This document shows, one piece after another, positions 58,314 to 59,576 of a stretch of DNA of 64,000 bases. The stretch is from Conexibacter sp. CPCC 206217 (GTDB lineage Bacteria > Actinomycetota > Thermoleophilia > Solirubrobacterales > Solirubrobacteraceae): contig NZ_JAUTDO010000002.1 in assembly GCF_030646165.1 (NCBI RefSeq), positions 496,001 through 560,000 of the forward strand, in the 5' to 3' direction. The notes beneath the pieces are model-generated. The model did no database searches. It had not been told where the DNA came from and was given only the letters and a program-made list of their open reading frames with translations. Position 1 is the first letter of the stretch, and each line of letters starts with the position of its first letter. The position numbers and the translations under genes were made by a program.

Positions 58314-59576
58314 ATGAGACGGCTCGCACTGGCAGGACTCCTTGCGGCGCTGCTCGCGTTCTTGGGCCCGGTGGCGGCCGCGTCGGCGATGCAGATCTTC
58401 GTCAAGACGCTCACGGGCAAGACGATCACGCTCGAGGTCGAGCCGAGCGACACGATCGAAAGCGTCAAGCAGAAGATCCAGGACAAGGAAGGGATCCCGC
58501 CCGACCAGCAGCGGCTGATCTTCGCCGGCAAGCAGCTGGAGGACGGCCGCACCCTCGCCGACTACAACATCCAGAGGGAGTCGACGCTGCACCTCGTCCT
58601 GCGACTCCGAGGGGGGACCGTCCCCGTGATCGCATCGACGACCGTCGACGGGCTGACGGTCGTGGTCTCCGGCACCGCCGACCCGTTGGCAAGTCTCACG
58701 GTGCTGGCCGACGCCGTCCCGATCGCGACCACCGCGGCCGACGCCGCTGGGGCCTGGAGCACGACCGCCACGCTCACCCCGGGCGAGCATCAGCTGACCG
58801 CGAGCAACACAGGCGAGCTGGGCGACCCGAGCCGGCTCTCCCCGCCGACACGCGTCACAGTCGAGGAGCCCCCTGTCGCCTGCCCCGACGGCAGCGCGGC
58901 CGGCGCCAGCGGCTGCCCCGGACCGCCGGTCGCGTGCCCCGACGGAGCGGCGGCCGATGCGGACGGCCGCTGCCCAGGCCCCCCGATCGCCTGCCCCGAC
59001 GGCAGCGCGGCCGGCGCCAGCGGCTGCCCCGGACCGCCGGTCGCGTGCCCCGACGGAGCGGCGGCCGATGCGGACGGCCGCTGCCCAGGCCCCCCGATCG
59101 CCTGCCCCAGCGGGGCGGCGCCCAGCACGGACGGCAGCTGCCCCGGGCTCCCGGCGGCAACGGGCCGGCCTCCAGCCGACTCGCGACCGTCTGCCCCGAC
59201 GATCGCTCATCTCTCGGCAGGCGCGCAGTGTGTCGACCGCAGCGGCTGGCTGGTGCCGCGCCCGCCGAGCGCAAGACGCGTCCCGTTCTTTCGCTTCCGC
59301 CTCTCCGCCGCGGCGACCGTCGACTACGTGCTCCTGCGCCGTGGCGGCCGTGAGCGCGTCGTGCGACAAGGCAGCCGCAAGCTGCCCGCAGGCCTGACCC
59401 GGATGACGCTGCGCGACGTGCGTCACGACCACGGCCTCGCCGCCGGTCGCTACGCCCTGCGCCTCACCGCTCGCGGCGCCCACGGCAGCAGGACCAAGCT
59501 CGCGACGGCCCGCTTCACGGTCGGCGTCGGGCGCTGCGCGCGGCTGACCGACCAGCCCCGCTCGCATCGGAGCTGA
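58314..59576 (+). CDS. Secreted ubiquitin fusion protein
   Basis: 420 residues. A 25-residue signal peptide ([20 protein letters not shown] then AAASA) ends with Ala-x-Ala exactly before a new Met. Residues 26-101 are a full 76-residue ubiquitin (58389-58616) from [20 protein letters not shown] to HLVLRLRGG. Against human ubiquitin from memory the only changes are N25S, A28Q, S57A and K63R. Lys 6, 11, 27, 29, 33, 48, the L8/I44/H68/V70 patch, S65 and RLRGG are kept. GG is followed by an Ig-like domain (about 102-185), five Cys-paired repeats of the form ACPDGxAAxAxGxCPGPP (about 188-285) and a basic beta-sandwich tail (about 305-410). Codon use is that of the host genome. No clear ribosome site. 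Divergent from the diguanylate cyclase. Exported ubiquitin homologues are otherwise known from Bacteroides fragilis. Confidence 0.95.
58876..59097 (+). repeat. Two perfect 111-bp tandem repeats within the ubiquitin-fusion gene
   Basis: Bases 58876-58986 and 58987-59097 are identical. Each unit codes for 37 residues, two Cys-pair modules ([15 protein letters not shown] and [16 protein letters not shown] types). A fifth, diverged module follows ([14 protein letters not shown]). Perfect identity indicates a recent duplication or gene conversion. Confidence 0.95.

Follow-up and report, generated by a model that had tools for sequence, protein, structure and literature searches.

Conexibacter sp. 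CPCC 206217 encodes a protein in which a near-human ubiquitin domain follows directly on a predicted bacterial signal peptide, and it belongs to a wider family of bacterial proteins whose shared design, as read from their sequences, is an exported, non-conjugating ubiquitin. It is probable that the protein in the window (the whole 64,000-nucleotide stretch analyzed here) delivers an exported ubiquitin payload that is not conjugated; whether its target is competing bacteria is more tentative, and we would put this at slightly less than an even chance. Ubiquitin is commonly held to be a hallmark of eukaryotes, and BfUbb of Bacteroides fragilis is the only studied exported bacterial copy that we found. 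If the same head is indeed present in many phyla and moved by phages, then a eukaryotic housekeeping protein has been turned into an outward-facing tool of bacteria. The soil bacterium Conexibacter woesei, whose type strain has a finished genome, would allow the role of such a protein to be tested directly.

Architecture of the window protein

The ubiquitin block of the window protein (Table 1) is identical to the human-type chain at 72 of 76 positions, differing only by N25S, A28Q, S57A and K63R, and matches PF00240 with 110.4 bits. An AlphaFold2 model built from a four-row alignment (mean pLDDT 70.6, pTM 0.31) places the ubiquitin fold at residues 26-96 and further strands at 105-183 and 297-403; the linker is modeled with low confidence. 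With this model as the query, Foldseek found 5yt6_A (TM 0.97 by target length, rmsd 0.6); all 50 of the 50 matches listed were ubiquitin entries, with no match to the C-terminal domain among them. The preliminary description had identified a near-human ubiquitin of 76 residues here, and identity, profile score and predicted fold all bear this out. It had also placed a signal peptide ending in Ala-x-Ala immediately before the ubiquitin, and the Ala-Ser-Ala of the leader does abut ubiquitin Met1, by a reading of the sequence and by the hydrophobicity rule, rather than a trained signal-peptide predictor, with which all leaders of the window protein and its family were called. The ubiquitin tail is LRLRGG followed by TVPV, and approximately 319 further residues lie downstream. 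The protein contains a single ubiquitin repeat, and the Pfam search gave no match to a ribosomal (L40/S27a) extension. Rfam, tRNA and promoter/terminator scans gave no matches. Upstream of the ubiquitin gene, two genes on the opposite strand (window 55241-57034 and 57009-58070, minus strand) contain GGDEF-like and EAL-like stretches as judged by eye.

Table 1. Features of the ubiquitin gene, in window coordinates
Feature	Position	Strand	Basis
Whole coding sequence, 420 aa	58314..59576	+	Translation; orthologs share the start Met
Predicted Sec signal peptide, 25 aa, last residues Ala-Ser-Ala	58314..58388	+	Sequence; hydrophobic 8-mer mean 2.9; 22/25 residues identical to L056
Ubiquitin domain, 76 aa (residues 26-101)	58389..58616	+	PF00240; alignment; AlphaFold2; Foldseek
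Gly75-Gly76 codons, present in the window, missing from all five orthologs	58611..58616	+	Ortholog alignment
Ig-like beta domain (residues 105-183)	58626..58862	+	Sub-threshold Pfam Big matches; model strands 105-183
Cys-Pro-Asp-Gly repeats and Pro-rich linker (approximately residues 188-295)	58875..59198	+	Sequence; low model confidence; dN/dS 0.87
C-terminal beta-sandwich (residues 297-403), without a family name	59202..59522	+	Model strands; conserved in orthologs

A family of bacterial ubiquitins with predicted export

A scan of genome contigs for the ubiquitin domain gave at least 53 loci, including isolates of Rhodobacter, Neptunomonas, Paenibacillus, Cohnella, Rhodopirellula, Thiocapsa, Belliella and Haliea. 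At a threshold of 60 bits, the loci collected contain 67 unique ubiquitin domains, duplicate fetches of Conexibacter loci being left out, and a hydrophobic leader precedes 47 of these and is lacking in 20. Besides the window protein and its relatives, the leader-bearing set takes in L001, from an archaeal bin, and many proteins from metagenome bins, the names of which may be wrong. It retains L021, with a doubtful leader, L046, which is broken or cut, and L063, which runs off its contig; it excludes L004 and L007, eukaryotic-looking contigs in bins. A small-x-small motif resembling a cleavage site stands directly before ubiquitin residue 1 in 39 of the 47, and Met1 is present in 44. The preliminary description had regarded the window ubiquitin as far above bacterial ubiquitin-like proteins; its closeness to the human sequence stands, but not its isolation, since 47 leader-bearing domains exist and that of Rhodobacter amnigenus (L010) is identical to it at 71 of 76 positions.

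What lies behind the ubiquitin head differs from one member to another. Curated models matched in the 47 full proteins detected SLH domains (five), IPTL-CTERM (five), autotransporter barrels (three) and T9SS tails (two), and a dockerin is found in L034; the remaining members, the window protein included, are without an assigned anchor. Because the head is constant and the anchors vary, the common property would be exposure outside the cytoplasm. Nine of the 47 are complete proteins of 103-134 aa in which ubiquitin makes up nearly the whole chain, which suggests that ubiquitin is itself the payload. L078, encoded on a phage-like contig, consists of a leader and ubiquitin only.

The features of ubiquitin that matter for conjugation are relaxed across the family. 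Gly75-Gly76 is present in only five of the 47 (L003, L006, L042, the window protein and L057), and the identity to human ubiquitin falls from 0.88 in the core to 0.77-0.78 on the surface, 0.66 in the I44 patch and 0.32 in the tail (72-76), the patch value not being significantly low, as 10.7% of random surface sets are as low. Together these values argue against conjugation, and no extra selection is seen on the main eukaryotic binding face, although that face may still have a role in the lineage of the window protein, which has largely retained the patch. The helix 1 and Asp58 sides are also conserved over the 47, although these were chosen post hoc and their conservation may be structural.

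Two further kinds of ubiquitin fusion were noted among the loci. On aquatic actinobacterial-type contigs (L012, L015, L017, L025, L035, L036, L037 and L045), ubiquitin is fused to a recurring domain that starts with GVVTY, and these genes often form tandem pairs and are without a leader. On a contig binned as Methanothrix (archaeal), L001:806-5278 encodes a leader and ubiquitin followed by approximately 1,390 residues with the look of repeated adhesin-like domains.

Orthologs, constraint and gene neighborhood

The preliminary description had proposed a search for orthologs in related genomes, and this found the protein in three of the seven genomes of the genus, namely the window genome (G000), G003 and G005. 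The ortholog alignment consists of six proteins (window, L055, L056, P0121, P0122 and P0123), and ubiquitin is its best-conserved part: the five orthologs are identical to the window protein at 62-67 of 74-75 ubiquitin positions and at 30-78 of 98-112 positions of the C-terminal domain. For the G003 ortholog the identities are 22/25 in the leader, 67/75 in ubiquitin and 77/111 in the C-terminal domain. NG86 dN/dS for one pair (window versus L056) is 0.23 in ubiquitin, 0.28 in the leader, 0.41 in the Ig-like domain, 0.48 in the C-terminal domain and 0.87 in the linker. A search with residues 102-420 alone, in which five-residue words had to be shared and 7,993 candidates were scored, returned four proteins including the query itself (the others were P0121, P0122 and P0123), and PF00240 is present in all four; within the reach of this search, ubiquitin and the remainder of the protein move as a single unit.

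The LRLRGG tail is unique to the window protein among the six orthologs. The others end in LRLREP (L056 and P0122), LRLRGAP (L055), LRTQP (P0123) or LRSQP (P0121). Lys48 has been replaced by Arg in L056, P0122 and L055. At position 63, Lys is found in one of the six proteins; three have Arg there and two have Ser. Any function common to the set cannot need conjugation. The Ile44 patch is largely retained in this lineage.

No common neighboring genes were found on the flanks compared for G000 (approximately 9 kb upstream and 7 kb downstream), G003 (approximately 9 kb each way) and G005 (approximately 15 kb upstream and 0.1 kb downstream, the gene ending near a contig end), with the exception of one pair at 41% between G003 and G005. 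It follows that there has been movement of either the gene or the DNA around it. Conserved synteny, considered as proof of vertical descent, was not found on these flanks.

Comparison with known secreted ubiquitins

That bacteria export ubiquitin is already known from BfUbb. This protein of B. fragilis is reported to be secreted, cut to start at Met1, and inhibitory to 13 of 40 B. fragilis strains (PMC5705921); it lacks Gly-Gly, bound human E1 and blocked ubiquitination in an extract (PMC3352274). A tyrosine residue in a peptidyl-prolyl isomerase reportedly determines sensitivity to BfUbb (Jiang et al., Nat Microbiol, as cited in PMC12396204; the same target paper is also cited in PMC12853789). 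BfUbb, as described in PMC3352274 and PMC5705921, and the window protein are alike in being bacterial, in having a signal peptide that ends exactly at ubiquitin Met1 (predicted for the window protein), in being present in only some strains and in having no conjugation operon. They differ in that BfUbb is a mature protein of 76 residues, described as 63% identical to human ubiquitin, with no Gly-Gly and a terminal Cys, whereas the window protein is 72/76 identical, has Gly-Gly and continues for the length of its C-terminal extension. Thus, of the features typical of BfUbb, the window protein has the leader directly before Met1, by the sequence rule, and has neither the terminal Cys without Gly-Gly nor a mature form consisting of ubiquitin alone, although its five orthologs do lack Gly-Gly. 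A protein of the same make as BfUbb, with a terminal Cys, is found in a Bacteroides bin (L043).

The secreted ubiquitin extension protein of the nematode Globodera rostochiensis, which carries a 12-residue extension that is reported to be cleaved in the plant (PMC5705921), has the same order of signal peptide, ubiquitin and C-terminal extension. However, it is eukaryotic, and the extension of the window protein is a large one of Ig-like and beta-sandwich domains, with orthologs that have no cleavable Gly-Gly. Eukaryotic polyubiquitin and ubiquitin-ribosomal fusions share with the window protein the 76-residue sequence; the window protein in contrast is single copy, has a bacterial leader and has no ribosomal extension. 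In the open-access literature, which most subscription journals lie outside, we found no publication on an anchored, multi-phylum or phage-borne exported ubiquitin, and none joining Conexibacter woesei and ubiquitin. This speaks weakly for novelty.

Proposed function of the window protein

By analogy with BfUbb, the window protein may act through a ubiquitin head that is secreted, is not conjugated and attaches to a partner on neighboring bacteria, harming or blocking them, a tentative reading that we hold at not quite even chances. The protein would be exported by the Sec pathway, cleaved at ubiquitin Met1, and either released or associated with the wall through its C-terminal part; it would then bind an envelope target of competitors non-covalently. 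A bacterial partner is favored because BfUbb, the bacterial relative that has been tested, inhibits rival strains. This reading is supported by the leader placed directly before Met1 in most of the family, the unrelated anchors behind the same head, the nine members that are little more than ubiquitin, the rarity of Gly-Gly, and the low dN/dS of ubiquitin relative to the linker in the one pair compared. Patchy presence, the lack of a conserved neighbor on the flanks and carriage by phages and plasmids suit a competition factor. Against it, the window protein, unlike BfUbb, retains Gly-Gly and is a long fusion, no immunity or target gene was found beside the window gene, and the Ile44 patch has been largely kept in this lineage.

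The main rival is a protein that faces eukaryotes, in which the exported ubiquitin would, for instance once taken up, target proteins of grazing protists or fungi, namely ubiquitin-binding proteins, E1 or deubiquitinases, and bind to them. We consider this possible but unlikely. The closeness of the window domain to human ubiquitin, its intact Gly-Gly and the I44 patch retained in the orthologs are what such a mimic would be expected to have, and secreted nematode ubiquitin is reported to act in plants (PMC5705921). The BfUbb precedent cuts both ways, in view of the binding to human E1 and the block of ubiquitination noted above. However, Gly-Gly is missing in 42 of the 47 family members as well as in all five orthologs, the I44 patch is less conserved than the surface as a whole, albeit not significantly, no delivery system was noticed beside the gene, and the effect described for BfUbb in PMC5705921 is on bacteria; a protist, fungal or plant target is nonetheless conceivable. 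The preliminary description had favored a secreted mimic, decoy or substrate trap, and a decoy or trap that requires authentic ubiquitin is not sustained: the Gly-Gly is absent from nearly all relatives, Lys48 and Lys63 are variable, and the Ile44 patch shows no particular conservation.

It is less probable still that ubiquitin is a passive, very stable cap or scaffold that merely protects or stiffens the N terminus of a surface protein. The core and structural positions are the best conserved, the interface and tail are relaxed, and the fusion partners are many, all of which would be compatible with such a role. Against it stand the nine members that are almost entirely ubiquitin and L078, on a phage-like contig, which has nothing behind its ubiquitin.

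Conjugation and cleavage

Bacterial antiviral Bil operons carry E1, E2 and JAB genes alongside a ubiquitin-fold protein, and the window protein resembles them in being a bacterial protein of that fold. The window genome contains one ThiF (E1-like) and one Prok-JAB match, approximately 3 kb apart at 444-448 kb of contig C1, whereas the ubiquitin gene is at 554 kb of contig C12 and its product is predicted to be exported. A test for a Bil-like operon accordingly found no E1-like or JAB gene beside the window ubiquitin gene; no dedicated conjugation operon is seen in its neighborhood, in agreement with the preliminary description. ThiF and Prok-JAB genes are also found together in G003 and in G005. 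E2 (PF00179) was found in none of 18 genomes, and no control genome matched either; JAB (PF01398) was found in none of three genomes, with two of 14 controls matching.

The intact LRLRGG of the window protein would permit an activating enzyme to use the Gly-Gly, or a deubiquitinase to free ubiquitin from the fusion. Such a cleavable or conjugatable ubiquitin is nonetheless very improbable: the Gly-Gly has gone from all five orthologs, which disfavors conjugation, the ThiF and Prok-JAB genes are on another contig, JAB (PF01398) was not found in the three genomes searched, and the predicted export would take ubiquitin away from ATP.

Nativeness of the gene

The window gene is native. The window corresponds to G000 C12:496001-560000, on a contig of 780,926 bases, and apart from its ubiquitin gene nothing in the 5.94-Mb genome matches PF00240. 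GC3 is 0.95 in the ubiquitin block, 0.80 in the leader and 0.88 in the rest of the gene, compared with 0.86-0.94 in four neighboring ORFs. One ortholog is in a genome assembled as a single contig of 6,359,369 bases (G003), which is taken to be that of Conexibacter woesei ID131577T, the finished chromosome of which has been published (PMC3035278). Other members of the family are in a complete chromosome (L032) and in complete plasmids. The host-like codon use and native status claimed in the preliminary description are upheld by these data. Despite a contamination estimate of 6.56% for the window genome, eukaryotic contamination or an assembly artefact is extremely improbable and was rejected, given the host-like GC3, the continuous reading frame that links ubiquitin to a bacterial leader and C-terminal domains, the single-contig ortholog genome, and the chromosomal and plasmid members. 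The idea of an oddity confined to a single genome was likewise rejected on the strength of the relatives in other genomes and the 47 leader-bearing domains.

Origin and spread of the ubiquitin head

The sequences hint at a protist donor of the bacterial ubiquitin head. Gln28 is present in 40 of the 47 leader-bearing domains and in 151 of 878 repeats, nearly all polyubiquitin, from the 119 non-query proteins listed in the first search; these Gln28 repeats come from 24 of the 119 proteins, and the one that has an organism name is from Ectocarpus. The preliminary description had called for a tree with eukaryotic ubiquitins. In the tree obtained, bacterial leader types lie among protist Gln28 sequences, with an SH-aLRT of only 85. 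It is based on 74 columns, has none of 101 inner branches starred, does not group the six orthologs, and leaves out scores below 75, near-duplicates, L004, L007, L046, L047, L052, L072, L074 and all but 45 of the eukaryotic repeats. With such support, the donor and the number of captures are guesses.

The distribution of the domain is sparse. PF00240 was found in eight of 201 relatives (seven above the cut-off), in three of 396 Actinomycetota, one of which is the window genome while the other two lack the leader type, and in two of 398 genomes of the R. amnigenus phylum including that of R. amnigenus, the other being a weak match without a leader. Two plasmid records carry a relative, one of them the mobilizable pRUMAL01 of Ruminococcus albus 7. 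There the leader-ubiquitin gene (L090:5929-6669) lies among small genes, several with leader-like starts, and near a dockerin gene.

Twelve IMG/VR loci contain ubiquitin, seven of them with a leader by the same rule; INPHARED phage records gave no match. In three of the IMG/VR loci (L082, L084 and L085), a gene encoding leader, ubiquitin and IPTL-CTERM (2376-2765 in L082) is directly upstream of terminase genes. Profile matches confirm the terminase calls in L082 and in L097, which is the record of L084. In L098 (the record of L087), a leader-ubiquitin-autotransporter gene at 15571-17013 is situated between terminase/portal/head genes and a tape-measure gene, and the ubiquitin gene of L078 sits among phage-like genes. 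L082 and L097 share a stretch of 2,722 bases, 99.5% identical, that includes the ubiquitin gene, and then continue into different terminase modules, a pattern that reflects either phage mosaicism or the same host segment adjoining two prophages. It is conceivable, though we regard it as unlikely in this full form, that displayed ubiquitin is a cross-phylum, phage-transmitted module: a Gln28-type ubiquitin would have been captured from a protist, given an export signal and repeatedly refitted to the anchors of its hosts as a weapon or shield against neighbors.

Approximately 1.8 kb from the leader-ubiquitin gene of L078 there is a gene for a cyclophilin-type peptidyl-prolyl isomerase (PF00160; L078:1634-2167, minus strand). 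It is of note because BfUbb reportedly acts on a peptidyl-prolyl isomerase, and it is a single case, a cyclophilin beside ubiquitin being found at one locus of 95 and in one of seven virus records.
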